The notes under the pieces are model-generated. The model saw nothing but the letters and a program-made list of their open reading frames with translations, was not told the origin of the DNA and made no database searches. The position numbers and the translations under genes are program-made. From a virus, in IMG/VR virus record IMGVR_UViG_3300028920_000265, positions 1-23,969 of that record: a stretch of DNA of 23,969 bases. One strand, given 5' to 3'. This document shows, piece after piece, positions 199-20,432 of this stretch; position 1 is the first letter of the stretch, and each line of letters starts with the position of its first letter.

Positions 199-663
199 GA
201 CGGCAAGAGCGTCACTGAAGAGGATGTTGAGAAGATGTTGGATGGTGTGATTTCTAAACATGTGTTGGATTTAGAACGGCGCACGAATGATATGGTACAG
301 AAAGCCGTTGATAGACTTGTTCAGCCAAAGGATGGAAAAGATGGAGAGGATGGAGCTCCGGGCGAGGATGGGGCAGATGGTTTTGGGTTTGATGATCTGG
401 ATGTAGTGCAGCTGGATGAGAAACGGCTTCAAATTGTTTTCACGAAAGGTGATCGCAGAAAGGAATTTGTTGTGGACATGCCCATCCTTATTGATCGAGG
501 AGTTTATAAACAAGGTATCACTTATACTAAAGGGGATGGAGTGACTTACGCTGGTTCTTTTTGGATTGCTCAAAAGAATAGCCCAAACCAAAAGCCGGGC
601 ACTGGGGAAGAATGGCGCTTGGCAGTTAAGCGGGGGCGCGATGCTAAGGAGCTTTCACAATGA
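1..663 (+). CDS. Collagen-like phage structural protein, 3' part (5' end outside window)
   Basis: The open frame runs from base 1 without a start, so the gene begins upstream. Its first 60 codons are five 12-residue Gly-X-Y units ([12 protein letters not shown]), then a partial sixth. A predicted helical stretch follows, then a second short Gly-X-Y run ([17 protein letters not shown], about codons 111-127). The C-terminal ~50 residues ([15 protein letters not shown]...SFWIA...[14 protein letters not shown]) resemble a small beta domain often found at the end of phage collagen-like proteins. Collagen-like phage proteins are usually virion fibres or capsid decorations, and the position just before the head-tail connector fits a head-associated role. 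The function is inferred. The ATG at 235 lies inside this frame and is probably not the true start. The stop overlaps the next start (ATGA). Confidence 0.85.
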
Positions 664-1049
664 CTATGATTGTTACTCGTGCTCAGGCAGCTGCTCATCT
701 CCGGATTGATGATTCAACCGATGAGGCAGCTGATCTCGATTTGAAGATTCAGGCAGCCTCAGCAATTGTGCTGGATTATATCGAATGGACTCCAGATAGG
801 TATGTTGCTGCGACTGAAATTAATGAATTGGATTCTGATTATGAGATTGACTCGGATTGGGATGAAGATTGGGACTCAGATTGGTTGGGTGATGAGGATT
901 ATTTATTCACCTTAAAAGCAGCAACATTGTTGCTTGTGGGCGACATGCATAGATACCGGGATGGAGGCAGCCCGAATTATACTGAGGCATTCTTGCCTCC
1001 GGCGGTTCGCGCGCTGCTGTATCCGGTAAAGAGCTGGGGAACATATTGA
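660..1049 (+). CDS. Phage head-tail connector protein (gp6-like)
   Basis: A 129-residue protein whose N-terminus ([13 protein letters not shown] followed by [18 protein letters not shown]) matches the helical start of HK97 gp6-like connectors. Those proteins form a ring under the portal and join the head to the tail. The C-terminus ([17 protein letters not shown]) also fits the family. A strong ribosome site (AAGGAG, 646-651) precedes the ATG, which overlaps the previous stop. Unusual: residues ~57-80 form a very acidic Asp/Trp-rich insertion ([18 protein letters not shown]) that I do not associate with typical gp6 proteins. Family assignment is from motif recognition only. Confidence 0.75.
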
Positions 1050-1591
1050 TGGTTGATATATTTTGTATAGCTTCTGGCCCAAGCTTGACCCAAGCTGATT
1101 GCGATCTTATCGCGCAGTCCGGGGCGAAGGTTTGCTGCGTTAATAATGCTTGGCAGATGTTTAATCGAATTGACTATTTGTATGCTGGAGATTTAAAGTG
1201 GTGGAAAGCGTATGCTGATCAGCTCACCATATCTATAGGAGAGAAATGGACTTGTGCCAAGTCAGCAGCAAAGAAGTTTGGGCTGAATCTCCACAAAGCT
1301 AATGGCCCATTTAATTCTGGAATGCGAGCTATTCAATGGGCCATCGAACAAGGATTTAAGTCAATTGCTTTGCTGGGATATGATTGCTCGATAAAGCTGG
1401 GGAGTCATTTCCATGGCGATCATACTTTTCCCAAAGCGCGCCAATTGACTAATCAAAAAGTGAGAAATTGGCATCTGCAGTTTTTGAAGGTGGAGAGACA
1501 AGCGTGTCGGGCAGGGGTGAAGGTTTACAACTGTAGCCGATACACGGAAATGGTGTGCTTCCCGCTAATGGATCTGGAGGAGGCGCTGTGA
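1049..1591 (+). CDS. GPSL-motif putative glycosyltransferase-like protein (DUF115 / GT42-like fold)
   Basis: A 180-residue protein. I chose the ATG at 1049, which overlaps the previous stop as TGATG; a TTG lies 3 nt upstream. Visible motifs in order: ASGPSL (residues 8-13), VNNAW (31-35), YAGD (45-48), FNSGMRA (88-94), LLGYD (108-112) and a His-rich HFHGDH (120-125). This order (nucleotide-binding GPSL loop, CN/VNN, SG..A helix, G-D strand, His) is that of Rossmann-like DUF115/MptE-type proteins and of GT42 sialyltransferases such as CstII. Such proteins are common in phage structural regions and usually unannotated. Transfer of a sugar is inferred; donor and acceptor are unknown. It is the first gene of a five-gene non-structural block inside the head-tail operon. 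Confidence 0.6.
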   Translation: MVDIFCIASGPSLTQADCDLIAQSGAKVCCVNNAWQMFNRIDYLYAGDLKWWKAYADQLTISIGEKWTCAKSAAKKFGLNLHKANGPFNSGMRAIQWAIEQGFKSIALLGYDCSIKLGSHFHGDHTFPKARQLTNQKVRNWHLQFLKVERQACRAGVKVYNCSRYTEMVCFPLMDLEEAL

Positions 1592-3021
1592 ATACAATTC
1601 AAGTTAAATCCTTGTGCAAGCATAAGTTCGGTGGAAAGAAACGTTTAAAGGGTTCCATATATGCTGTGAAGTCAAGACAGCTCAAATTTTTAGTGAAGAT
1701 AGGATGGGTTGAGGCAGTTGATGATGCTGTGTTTTTTGAGGAAGAGTTGAAGATGCTGAAACAACCCGTGCTAGAAAGCTCTTTCCTTCTCGGTGGTGGA
1801 CCAAGCATTTCCAATTTAGATTTGAGGGCGCTGGATGGGCAGCATGTTGTCGCGGTCAATCGTTCCTTTGAGACGTATCCATGTGATGAAATGTTCTTTG
1901 GGGATATGTCTTTTTTTGAAGAGTTTGGTGATAAGTTCATGGCGCTGGATTTTCCGAAAGTCACCGTGAAGCAGCAGCTCAAGGGTTTGCCTGGTATACG
2001 CGCGTTAAAGAAAAGTTCTAGTTGCAAAAAACTTCAGAGAACTCCGGGATGGCTCATTAGTAGTAATTCTGGGGTTATGGCGCTGAATTATCTTCTTCAG
2101 CGAGGCTGTAAGCTGGTTGTTTTGCTGGGGATGGACTTGCGTAAGATTGGTGGCCGCAAGCATCATCATGATGGCTACACTCATCCTTCTAAGCCTAAAT
2201 CTTGCAGGACGATGCTGGGCGAGTGGCGCGGGATTCGGAAACAGGCGTGGGAAAAATTTGATGCGGATATTATTCATGCGACTCCGGGGAGTGCGCTTGA
2301 TGAGGTTGAGTATTTACCATTGGAGGTTATTGTGGATGCAATTAAAACTAAAGATTATGTTGGCGGTTGGTGGTTACCAAAAGGCGAAAAACATTTTCGG
2401 ATGATGCTGGAGAAAAGTAAGCCTGCTCATGGACGGGCAACGTATCAATATCAGAAGCTTTCCCCGGCAGTGGCTCTTGTCAAGGATAAAAAAGGGATTG
2501 CGATTGATGTGGGATCGAATGTTGGGTTCTGGGCGTGGCATCTTGCGCGAGAGTTTGATCATGTTCATTGTTTTGAGCCTATTCCGATTCATAATGAATG
2601 TTTGAGGCTTAATTCGCAGGACGTGGAGAACATTAGTATTCATGAGGAAGCTCTGAGCGATAAGAAGTGCGAAGTTGAGCTGATTGTGTATGATGGGGAC
2701 TGCGGAGCCACGCACATTGATCAGAATTGTTCAAGACCGGGGGAGAAATTCACTAAGGTAAAATCTAAGTGTTGTACCCTTGATAGTTATAATTTCAAGA
2801 ATGTAAAGTTTCTGAAGATTGACTGTGAGGGGTTTGAATTGGCAGTTTTGAAGGGAGCAGAAAAGACTCTGCAAGAGAATAGTCCGGTGATTGTTGTGGA
2901 ACAGAAAAAGGAAAATGAGCGCTTTGGTTTACCATCCAAGGGCGCTGTTGAATATCTGAAGTCAATTGGGTATGTTGCCCGGCGCGTATTGGCTGGGGAT
3001 TACATTATGGAGAGAGAATAG
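1588..3021 (+). CDS. Three-part fusion: small phage domain + GPS-type transferase domain + FkbM methyltransferase
   Basis: A 477-residue protein starting at GTG 1588, which overlaps the previous TGA (GTGA) and sits behind a strong GGAGGAGG site. Residues ~1-45 (KG.IYAVKSRQLKFLVKIGWVE) resemble a small domain seen in phage head-region proteins. Residues ~64-250 carry a second GPSL-type domain: LGGGPSIS (68-75), AVNRSF, FFGDMSFFEEF, NSGVMALNYLL (~160), VVLLGMD (~175) and HHHDGYTH (~190). Residues ~300-470 are a class I SAM-dependent FkbM methyltransferase: IAIDVGSNVGFWAWHLA (motif I), CFEP, and KIDCEGFELAVLKGAEKTL, the FkbM hallmark. FkbM enzymes O-methylate sugars and related metabolites. The fusion suggests transfer and methyl capping of one glycan, which is inference. 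Confidence 0.75.
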   Translation: MNTIQVKSLCKHKFGGKKRLKGSIYAVKSRQLKFLVKIGWVEAVDDAVFFEEELKMLKQPVLESSFLLGGGPSISNLDLRALDGQHVVAVNRSFETYPCDEMFFGDMSFFEEFGDKFMALDFPKVTVKQQLKGLPGIRALKKSSSCKKLQRTPGWLISSNSGVMALNYLLQRGCKLVVLLGMDLRKIGGRKHHHDGYTHPSKPKSCRTMLGEWRGIRKQAWEKFDADIIHATPGSALDEVEYLPLEVIVDAIKTKDYVGGWWLPKGEKHFRMMLEKSKPAHGRATYQYQKLSPAVALVKDKKGIAIDVGSNVGFWAWHLAREFDHVHCFEPIPIHNECLRLNSQDVENISIHEEALSDKKCEVELIVYDGDCGATHIDQNCSRPGEKFTKVKSKCCTLDSYNFKNVKFLKIDCEGFELAVLKGAEKTLQENSPVIVVEQKKENERFGLPSKGAVEYLKSIGYVARRVLAGDYIMERE

Positions 3022-3024
3022 AAG

Positions 3025-3651
3025 ATGGTTATGGATGCGCGCGATGAGCTGAAAAAATATTTGATTGGCAAGACAATTTTAATTGTTGGGGGTGGGCCTG
3101 GTGCGGCATGTTGTTCCTCTTGCTGGTATAGTAAATTTGATATTATTGTTCGATGCAATAATTATCAAAAATCCTGCAATGCGCGGACAGACATCTTTGT
3201 TTCATATTTCGGGGAGAACATAACAAAAAGCAAGGAGGAGCTGATTGCTGATGGAGTAAAATTTGCTGTTTGTAATTGTCCGAATGCTGACATGAGTGAA
3301 GAATTGAATAAGAGCCCAGGCCAACAGAAAGATTTTCACTGGATATATGAATTTAGAAAAGATTGGTGGTTCTGTCCTGTTGTTGGTTTGACTAAAGAAG
3401 AATTGGTTACTCAGGTGGGTTTGCTTGATGGATATATGCCGTCAGTTGGATTATCAGCCGTCTTGTTTTTTGAGCAATTTTGCTCGCCTGTAAATATAAT
3501 TGGCTTTGATTGTTTCGAGTCTGGGTTGCACGATTTGAATAAAAAATGGGATCGGTCTGGTGAACATAATCCCCAGAGAGAAAAGCAATTATTAAAAAAA
3601 TTGGAACAAAGCGGTAAACTTATATGGCATGCGAAAGGAAAGGGATGGTGA
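3025..3651 (+). CDS. Putative sialyltransferase-like (GT29/GT42-type) glycosyltransferase
   Basis: A 208-residue protein; ATG at 3025 (or 3031) follows GGAGAGAGAA. Motifs: ILIVGGGPGA (residues 18-27), a probable nucleotide-binding turn; IIVRCNNYQKS (40-50); RTDIFVSYFGE (54-64); MPSVGLSAVLFFEQF (138-152); and NIIGFDCFESGLHD (157-170). The order GGGP, RCN, TD-aromatic, SxGxxA, G(F/I)D corresponds to the sialyltransferase motif order of GT29 and GT42 enzymes (CstII reads GNGPSL, FRCNQF, TSGVYM, LSGID). It is cysteine-rich (CCSSCW near residue 30). It is the third protein of this type in a row, although divergent from the first two. Activity and sugar are not established. It overlaps the next gene by a few bases. 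Confidence 0.55.
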   Translation: MVMDARDELKKYLIGKTILIVGGGPGAACCSSCWYSKFDIIVRCNNYQKSCNARTDIFVSYFGENITKSKEELIADGVKFAVCNCPNADMSEELNKSPGQQKDFHWIYEFRKDWWFCPVVGLTKEELVTQVGLLDGYMPSVGLSAVLFFEQFCSPVNIIGFDCFESGLHDLNKKWDRSGEHNPQREKQLLKKLEQSGKLIWHAKGKGW

Positions 3652-4193
3652 ACATGAAAAATAGAATGTCTATGGTTTATGTTCAAGAGCATACAGATCA
3701 TTCTTTGATAGTAGCGGAAATTGGGGTGTGGGCAGGGGACAATGCTCAGCGTCTGATGGGGCTGAATCTGGATCGTCTTTTCCTGATTGATTCTTACAAA
3801 GAATATGCTCGCCACGATCAAAAAGAATTAGATGAAGTTATGCATGCTGCTTTGCCAAAAATTGCGTCACATCCGAATGCTTATAAAACTAGTTTCATCA
3901 GAATGGAATCTGTTGAGGCTGCTGAGTTGTTTCTGGATGAATATTTTGATTATATTTATATTGATGGTAATCACACGCTGGATGCTGTGTCAAAGGATTT
4001 GGAAGCGTGGTGGCCAAAGGTGAAGCCTGGAGGATATTTTGCCGGGCATGATTACAGCTCGAGCATTGGAGTGATGCGAGCTGTTGAAACTTTTTGTGAA
4101 AAGTATGGGCTTGATTTTCAGTCTTGGGCTCCTCCGAGAACAGAGGATGGCCCAGAACATCTCGCGGATTGGCTTATCAGGAAGGCTGATTAA
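3645..4193 (+). CDS. Class I SAM-dependent methyltransferase (Methyltransf_24-like)
   Basis: The start is ambiguous: ATG at 3645 (182 aa) or 3654, both behind AAAGGAAAGGG (3634-3644); the in-frame ATG at 3624 has no such site. Numbered from 3645, VAEIGVWAGDNAQRL (23-37) is the SAM-binding glycine loop, FLIDSY (46-51) is the motif II acidic strand, and DYIYIDGNHTLDAVSKDL (102-119) plus KPGGYFAGHDY (127-137) are the motif IV/V pattern of the Methyltransf_24 family. That family often sits in glycan biosynthesis clusters and methylates sugars or small molecules. The gene ends directly against the next start (TAAATG). With the FkbM domain upstream it gives the block two distinct methyltransferases. 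Substrate unknown. Confidence 0.75.
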   Translation: MVNMKNRMSMVYVQEHTDHSLIVAEIGVWAGDNAQRLMGLNLDRLFLIDSYKEYARHDQKELDEVMHAALPKIASHPNAYKTSFIRMESVEAAELFLDEYFDYIYIDGNHTLDAVSKDLEAWWPKVKPGGYFAGHDYSSSIGVMRAVETFCEKYGLDFQSWAPPRTEDGPEHLADWLIRKAD

Positions 4194-4982
4194 ATGGGAC
4201 TTGGCGATGAAATAATGGCGATGGGCGAAGCAGAAGCGCTGTATGAAGTTACAGGTAGGCCAGTAGCTATTTGCGACAAAAACAATCGACCGCGCTGGCA
4301 CAAAGCGTGGAGAAATAATCCCGCGGTCAGCAGGGAGTTGAGAAGTGGTATTGATTCTATTATCAATTGCCCTGGTCAAAGGTCATACATCAAACAATGG
4401 AAACATTCTCCGCGTCGAACTGAGTTCAACCTGGATCATCGCGCAAGGGCTGGGAAGATTTATCTCACTGTTGAGGAGGAGTGTACAGTGCGTGCGTTGG
4501 TGCCGGAAGGGGAGTTTGTAATTATTGAACCAGCAACTCGGGTGAGTGTCAAAAGTAGTCGAAACAAGGATTGGGGTATGGAACGCTGGGCAGAGGTTAT
4601 TCGTGATTTTCCGGTTCCTGTGTATCAATTTGATATTGGAGATGAGACGCCTTTACTGGAAAGTGTTGGTATAATTTATTCAAATGATTTTCGGATATCA
4701 GTAGGAATAATAAAATTTGCTGTTTTGGTTTTGACTATTGATGGAGGTATGCACCATTTTGCAGCGAGCATGGGAACGGATGCTGTGGTGGTATTTGGTG
4801 GATTCTGTGATCCTAAAATAACTGGGTATAATTCTCATGCAAATTTTTACTCTGATATTGATGGGAGTCCATGCGGGCGTTATGATCCCTGCTCTCATTG
4901 TAAGGAAGCGATGGCGCTGATAACGCCTGAACAGGTACGCGCTGAAGCGCTGAAGAGATTGGAGGGGATTCGTGTCGCTTGA
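4194..4982 (+). CDS. Short GT9-family (heptosyltransferase-like) glycosyltransferase
   Basis: A 262-residue protein whose start abuts the previous stop. MGLGDEIMAMGEAEAL (1-16) matches the N-terminal G-x-GDxI loop of GT9 proteins. RVSVKSSRNKDWGMERWAEV (116-135) is the donor-site K/R-x-W..ERW segment. TIDGGMHHFAASMGTDAVVVFG (181-202) is the D(S/G)G..H.A...G...V..FG signature of ADP-heptose:LPS heptosyltransferases. A C-terminal cysteine pattern (C227, C233, C236) recalls the C..C motif near the end of many heptosyltransferases. At 262 residues it is shorter than typical GT9 enzymes (~320-350), with a compressed acceptor half. In bacteria GT9 enzymes add heptose to LPS core; here the acceptor is unknown. 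Last gene of the inserted block; it overlaps the head-tail joining gene by 11 nt. Confidence 0.7.
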   Translation: MGLGDEIMAMGEAEALYEVTGRPVAICDKNNRPRWHKAWRNNPAVSRELRSGIDSIINCPGQRSYIKQWKHSPRRTEFNLDHRARAGKIYLTVEEECTVRALVPEGEFVIIEPATRVSVKSSRNKDWGMERWAEVIRDFPVPVYQFDIGDETPLLESVGIIYSNDFRISVGIIKFAVLVLTIDGGMHHFAASMGTDAVVVFGGFCDPKITGYNSHANFYSDIDGSPCGRYDPCSHCKEAMALITPEQVRAEALKRLEGIRVA

Positions 4983-5307
4983 TTCGGGAAAACTGAGACA
5001 CAGGTTGCAGATTCTGACTCTGACGGCAGAGCAGAATTCTGATGGAGAAATGGTTGAGACTTGGGATGAGCTTGATACGGTGTGGGGGTCATTTGAACCT
5101 TATAGTACTAAGGATGTTTTGCTGGCTCGGAGCGCGCAGGAACAGTCTTCAGCACGTGCTGTTATTCGGTATCGTGATGATGTGACTTCAGCTGAGCGTG
5201 TGTCTTTTCGGAGTCGGTTGTATAAGATTGATGGGCCACCTTTGCCTGATCCGGAGAGTGGGACTGAATATTTGACATTAATGCTTGCGGAGATAGCGAA
5301 TGTTTGA
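4972..5307 (+). CDS. Phage head-tail joining protein (Phage_H_T_join / SPP1 gp16-like)
   Basis: A 111-residue protein starting at GTG 4972 with GGAGGGG just upstream, inside the 3' end of the GT9-like gene. The pattern LRHRLQILTL...DGEMVETWDELDTVWGSFEP...R..IRYRDDVTSAERVSFRSRLYKIDG is the standard beta-barrel head-tail adaptor/closure family (Phage_H_T_join). These proteins form the last ring of the connector, where the tail docks. It should sit next to the gp6-like connector but is separated from it here by 3.9 kb of sugar and methyl transfer genes. It overlaps the next gene by 8 nt. Confidence 0.88.
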   Translation: MSLDSGKLRHRLQILTLTAEQNSDGEMVETWDELDTVWGSFEPYSTKDVLLARSAQEQSSARAVIRYRDDVTSAERVSFRSRLYKIDGPPLPDPESGTEYLTLMLAEIANV

Positions 5308-19922: not shown

Positions 19923-20432
19923 ATGGGCAAGGTAAAAAGCCTCCAGTACCTTCAGAACAAGCGCCTCGAATGGTCGGACAAAATCGTGGCCACAACTAAT
20001 GGCGCGTTCGATCTCCTGCACAAAGGTCATATTTATATATTTGAGACCGCGAAAAAACAAAGCGATATTCTGGTTGTGGGGGTCAACTCTGACGCTTCAA
20101 TCCGCCAATACAAGAGCCCAACTCGCCCGATAAATACCTTGTTAGATAGGTTAGCAGTTTTGGAAGCGATTGAGCATATTGATTATCTGGTGGTGTTTGA
20201 GGAGCTGGATCCAAGAGCCTTTCTGCAGGCAATTGCTCCTGATAAGCATTTCAAAAGCCGGGAAGGTTACAAGGGTATAGAGGAGGATGTGATTGCCCGC
20301 AAAAGAATTCACCTGCTTGATGACATCCCCAATTACAGCTCTACTCGATTATTTAAGCGCCTGTATGACGACTTGATTTATCAGGACATGCAAAGGGGTG
20401 AAAAGCTTCCCGGGGCGGATTTTCTGGAATAG
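19923..20432 (+). CDS. RfaE2/HldE-C-type nucleotidyltransferase (heptose-1-phosphate adenylyltransferase-like)
   Basis: 169 residues; AGGAGAG lies just before the ATG. TTNGAFDLLHKGHIYIF (24-40) carries the HxGH nucleotide-transfer motif (HKGH, 33-36). VVGVNSDASIRQYKSPTRPI (51-70) followed by N71 and DR, DYLVVFEELDP (87-97), and a C-terminal YSSTRLFKRL (138-147, the [ST]-S-T-x-L motif) are diagnostic of the RfaE domain II/HldE C-terminal family. In bacteria these convert D-glycero-D-manno-heptose 1-phosphate to ADP-heptose for LPS and other glycans. The kinase half of HldE is absent. Related cytidylyltransferases share the motifs, but the NSD.SIR..K.P.RP(I)N string favours the RfaE type. It could feed the GT9-like protein encoded at 4194. 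Confidence 0.85.
   Translation: MGKVKSLQYLQNKRLEWSDKIVATTNGAFDLLHKGHIYIFETAKKQSDILVVGVNSDASIRQYKSPTRPINTLLDRLAVLEAIEHIDYLVVFEELDPRAFLQAIAPDKHFKSREGYKGIEEDVIARKRIHLLDDIPNYSSTRLFKRLYDDLIYQDMQRGEKLPGADFLE

Follow-up and report, generated by a model that had tools for sequence, protein, structure and literature searches.

A predicted phage GPS–FkbM fusion enzyme with an N-terminal domain that follows the capsid-adjacent protein of its lineage

Results

A predicted transferase–methyltransferase of uncultured phages carries at its N-terminus a small domain related to the protein encoded next to the major capsid gene, and two phage lineages with unrelated capsid proteins carry different, lineage-matched domains on one homologous enzymatic core. 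Sequence comparison suggests that this small domain is an interchangeable docking module, through which a glycosylation/methylation cassette reaches the head as it forms. The window, which is the whole stretch of DNA analysed, is a virus record of 23,969 bases whose connector and tail genes resemble those of siphophages. Positions 1588-3021 form a single open frame of 477 amino acids with a GTG start, and the start position of the relatives aligns with this GTG. The protein comprises a small N-terminal domain of about 45 amino acids (here, the dock domain), a GPS/sialyltransferase-like domain and a complete FkbM methyltransferase. An earlier sequence-only reading had named these three domains in this order, and searches with PF05050, TIGR01444, phrog_4603 and a dock profile confirmed them. 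The features are collected in Table 1.

Table 1. Features of the fusion gene and the surrounding cassette in the window.
Feature	Coordinates	Strand	Evidence
gp6-like head-tail connector, left cassette border	660..1049	+	phrog_40 E=1.5e-12
Stand-alone GPS protein (relative of D3 orf7, P1 pmgO, PAJU2 ORF010)	1046..1591	+	phrog_4603 E=1.7e-47
Shine-Dalgarno-like GGAGGAGG	1576..1583	+	read from sequence; GTG start four bases further on
Small dock domain, residues 1-45	1588..1722	+	hhalign vs lineage-1 standalone proteins; HMM search
GPS/sialyltransferase-like domain, residues 62-252	1771..2343	+	phrog_4603; Maf and CstI/CstII fold
FkbM methyltransferase domain, residues 256-474	2353..3009	+	PF05050, TIGR01444, alignment to standalone enzymes, 2py6
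GT29/sialyltransferase-like protein	3025..3651	+	PF00777 23.6 bits vs cutoff 23, E=4e-5
Class I methyltransferase (Methyltransf_24)	3624..4193	+	PF13578 E=3.3e-15
GT9-like (heptosyltransferase family) protein	4194..4982	+	PF01075 25.8 bits vs cutoff 22
Head closure protein Hc1, right cassette border	4972..5307	+	PF05521 E=1.9e-21; phrog_25 E=3.4e-24

The FkbM part matched Pfam PF05050 (E=9.6e-15, 55.6 bits against a cutoff of 22.7, residues 307-462) and NCBIfam TIGR01444 (E=9.4e-25, 87.7 bits against a cutoff of 37.7), and the motifs DVGSNVGFW and KIDCEGFE are kept. It is a predicted SAM-dependent O-methyl transferase. The domain was modelled confidently by AlphaFold2, and its structural matches include the FkbM structure 2py6 (Z 13.9). 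This part of the fusion opens with GGWWLP (residues 259-264). Two standalone phage FkbM enzymes aligned with the fusion have a short leader followed by G(W/Y)W-P, which coincides with the start of its FkbM part. Since the starts of the standalone enzymes coincide with the joint, the fusion has the appearance of an entire GPS protein followed by an entire standalone methyltransferase. Phage FkbM proteins of phrog_8156, such as those of Caulobacter phage C1 and Pelagibacter phage Mosig, share the methyltransferase and the G(W/Y)W-P start with the fusion but are encoded by stand-alone genes and have neither a GPS nor a dock domain.

The GPS domain matched the profile of phrog_4603, annotated as 'alpha-2;3-sialyltransferase' (E=1.2e-21, residues 69-249). 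The alignment showed that its GPS, N91, D106, SNSG, GMD and HxH positions are kept; the significant profile match together with the conserved GPS, NSG, GxD and HxH positions places the domain in that family. The methyltransferase is complete, as had been claimed from the sequence, and the signature motifs of both enzymatic parts are intact. In the full-length model the GPS region was poor because the alignment is shallow there, and the structural conclusions rest on a model built from a separate GPS alignment. In this model the pLDDT is about 90 across most of residues 61-250, with a weaker stretch at residues 181-200 (about 57-76). Foldseek against the PDB returned a single match below 1e-3, an archaeal HPPK. 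The Maf/CstI/CstII family view comes from a second structural aligner, in which the top neighbours were the Maf glycosyltransferase 5mu5 (Z 13.4), CstI (Z 11.9), CstII (Z 11.6) and the archaeal HPPK (Z 10.9). A GT42-type fold like that of CstI/CstII is present in the model, and the best PDB match by sequence was CstII, at a weak E=0.067. The domain is a putative transferase of a nucleotide-activated sugar. Maf and CstI/CstII are cellular enzymes of flagellin or lipooligosaccharide glycosylation.

The dock domain is related to a small standalone protein encoded shortly after the major capsid gene. Wherever both genes are present, the start of the standalone gene lies 54-114 bp downstream of the capsid gene. 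In lineage 1, to which the window belongs, this standalone relative has 93-97 amino acids and its gene lies between the capsid and portal genes. In lineage 2 it is a different protein of 134-140 amino acids, encoded just after an unrelated capsid gene. Comparison by hhalign of the lineage-1 fused domain with its own capsid-adjacent protein gave a probability of 97.7% (E=1.5e-12; profile-profile range 95.8-97.7%), and the lineage-2 pair gave 99.4%. The cross-lineage pairs, fused domain against the standalone protein of the other lineage, gave 0.5% and 0.6%, that is, nil. When the profile of the lineage-1 fused domain was run against 14,085 ORFs, only fusions and capsid-adjacent small ORFs were found at E<0.01. 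Fused and standalone forms match clearly at the level of lineages and not of individual phages; the closest standalone relative of the window's domain is that of L025 (50% over 38 aa). Because the window opens beyond the capsid gene of its phage, the phage's standalone copy is not visible in it.

The head-region relative proposed for the N-terminal segment was therefore found, in the form of this capsid-adjacent protein. AlphaFold modelling, which the sequence-only reading had suggested for confirming three folded units, was mostly confident for the FkbM and GPS domains and of low confidence for the small domain (pLDDT about 45-75). The dock domain did not reach the gathering cutoff (27 bits) of DUF7210 (PF23843) and is therefore not filed in that family; the best score, 18.8 bits (E=0.0012), was that of the fused domain of L002, followed by 17.6-17.9 bits for L006. 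No isolate in the phage collection was matched by the two standalone dock proteins searched against it. Phage D3 orf6.5 was considered as a dock-domain relative and the comparison was not significant. Two standalone lineage-2 dock proteins (L182:1219-1623 and L192:5980-6315) have a second, C-terminal motif, GGW(Y/F/W)(D/N)V(V/I)N...GK..N.K.L, to which Pfam and PHROGs offered no convincing match in the proteins scanned.

Eight further contigs of uncultured phages encode the fusion. They fall into two lineages, between which the catalytic core is about 47-51% identical. The full-length lineage-1 relatives (L001, L002 and L006) are 77-81% identical to the window protein, and L003 is partial. Lineage 2 (L182, L183, L184 and L099) is about 50% identical over the GPS and FkbM domains, and the L182 fusion carries an extra N-terminal domain. 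In L099 the fusion gene (L099:3-1447) is split into two overlapping frames around 362-422, an apparent frameshift; the downstream GT9-like gene is also split, which suggests sequencing errors. The eight fused rows of both lineages formed one clade in the FkbM tree (support 100/99) and in a second tree (100/100). Lineage 2 was paraphyletic, and a tree holding it together was not rejected (p-AU 0.138). The cassette neighbours are also homologous between lineages, with the GT9-like proteins 50% and the Methyltransf_24 proteins 45% identical, whereas the capsid proteins of lineages 1 and 2 had no match to each other. Where dS could be estimated, dN/dS indicated purifying selection on all three parts of the fusion (about 0.11-0.38 for the small domain, 0.05-0.13 for GPS and 0.04-0.08 for FkbM), the small domain evolving faster than the enzyme parts.

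No described enzyme with this domain order was found, in agreement with the earlier reading. Among 50,697 phage records and the PLSDB plasmids, no record covered 80% of the fusion protein and no such fusion was seen. Two pattern scans of prokaryote genomes gave no full relative; the genome and plasmid scans used short patterns or tblastn, so that absence from them is not proof. No paper on the fusion architecture or on DUF7210 was found in the literature.

The window cassette sits between connector genes inside the structural operon, and a head-closure gene was found near the GPS gene in 50 of the 79 loci fetched for the phrog_4603-type GPS family. A collagen-like protein with a conserved C-terminal domain is encoded directly upstream of the connector gene (window 235-663; L001:2943-3905; L006:2227-3438) and is a candidate glycan acceptor. 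Elsewhere in the window, positions 19923-20432 encode an HldE-C-like nucleotidyltransferase (TIGR02199, E=2.2e-31, below the equivalog cutoff). This protein may provide an activated sugar for the GT9-like gene product; activated heptose as one possible donor is a guess from its presence.

Discussion

The dock domain follows the head-region protein of its own lineage while the enzyme stays the same, and this is why we read it as a docking module. The lineage-matched relation is the surprising part and had not been noticed from the sequence. Tethering to the virion, which had been proposed for the N-terminal segment, thereby gains comparative support, and docking itself is what we infer. The observation made from the sequence is confirmed and its interpretation partly supported, being strengthened on this point.

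We think it fairly probable, well short of certain, that the fusion is a virion-directed modifying enzyme that docks on the assembling head, transfers a sugar and O-methylates the resulting glycan. The dock domain would bind the assembling head through the partner of the standalone protein or through the standalone protein itself. The GPS domain would move a nucleotide-activated sugar onto a virion protein or a growing glycan, the FkbM domain would O-methylate this glycan, and the products of the neighbouring GPS, GT9-like and methyltransferase genes would complete it. Catalysis, acceptor, order of steps and docking are all putative in this scheme. Docking is favored by the position in the connector cluster, by purifying selection, by the lineage-matched tags on one core and by a lineage-2 dock domain found on another enzyme. 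In this last protein (L157:3039-3983) the domain is fused to a different transferase-like domain, of the kind found at the N-terminus of the L182 protein, ahead of the dock domain there; FkbM is encoded separately in L157. A virion-directed role is also favored by an independent fusion, a chain of 688 aa (L172:2501-4564) with a GT (phrog_1962), an MptE-like and an FkbM domain, encoded directly after capsid-region genes. According to the FkbM tree this fusion of GPS type and FkbM arose separately from those of the window type; it differs from them in its GPS subfamily and its extra GT domain, and no dock domain was detected in it.

Members of the GPS/GT42/Maf, GT9 and FkbM families often have surface glycans or flagella as their targets. 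In keeping with this, and with the HldE-C-like nucleotidyltransferase of the window (enzymes of this type make the ADP-heptose used for LPS), the acceptor could be a glycan of the host surface, such as LPS or capsule, modified as in superinfection exclusion or seroconversion; the small domain would then do no more than help folding or oligomerisation. We regard this as unlikely, since the genes lie inside the connector cluster and the fused domain tracks the capsid-adjacent protein of its lineage across unrelated phages, which host targeting does not predict.

The small domain could instead be a by-product without any targeting role, the capsid-adjacent gene having been duplicated locally and one copy having fused by accident with the enzyme gene that follows it, separately in each lineage. 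Every standalone copy of the lineage-2 type is directly followed by a GPS gene (most of these copies were retrieved by a search with the small domain alone), and with the two genes adjoining, an accidental fusion would be easy. The faster evolution of the small domain points the same way. We consider this origin somewhat less probable still: chance joining does not account well for a homologous core that bears a different, lineage-matched domain in each of the two lineages, for the third architecture seen in L157, or for the purifying selection that keeps the domain. Phages also use glycosyltransferases on hypermodified DNA bases, and yet action of the enzyme on DNA or a small molecule, not on a protein or host glycan, is very improbable given that no gene for DNA-base hypermodification was seen beside the fusion and that the cassette belongs to the head-tail operon and includes a fused capsid-adjacent domain.

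Virion direction by the dock domain can be compared with known systems. Head-tail operons that contain GPS genes (D3 orf7, P1 pmgO) are already known, as is the glycosylation of mycobacteriophage virions; the capsid-tagged fusion appears to be new. The GPS family of the window fusion is shared with phrog_4603 proteins D3 orf7, P1 pmgO, P7 hdmB and PAJU2 ORF010. As in the window, the GPS gene of D3, PAJU2 and Psp6 lies among head and connector genes, and PAJU2 has a methyltransferase gene near it; the GPS proteins of D3, P1, P7 and PAJU2, however, are stand-alone, with neither FkbM nor a fused capsid-adjacent domain. A PAJU2 neighbour that looked GT9-like by eye had no similarity to the window GT9-like protein and no Pfam match. 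No functional test of the phrog_4603 GPS family was found in the literature. Phage P1 pmgO and pmgP are nonessential in the laboratory (PMC10695390), which counts against virion decoration. Mycobacteriophages Che8, Corndog and Myrna encode glycosyltransferases that add sugars to their capsid and tail proteins (PMC12363180), a precedent for the kind of process proposed here. The enzymes of that system are different and no fused capsid-adjacent domain is described for it; virion modification by the window fusion is a prediction from sequence.

How the mycobacteriophage enzymes find the particle is a question for which we found no explanation in the literature, and a docking domain matched to the lineage would supply a rule for targeting that can be tested. 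It would also link virion modification to the GPS genes that are widespread, but so far unexplained, in D3- and P1-like phages, and hint at a role for the small proteins encoded just after capsid genes. A further idea, which we hold tentatively and would sooner doubt than accept, is that the fusion is a mobile decorating enzyme whose tag is swapped to match the recipient's capsid-adjacent protein when the cassette moves between phages with unrelated capsids. If so, the tag would act as an interchangeable code by which a phage directs post-translational modification to its own particle. In another contig, the region after the capsid and dock genes (L192:6317-10530) has GPS, GT, methyltransferase, epimerase-like (sugar-nucleotide), GT2-like and sulfotransferase-like genes, and is probably a large glycan cassette in a virion operon.
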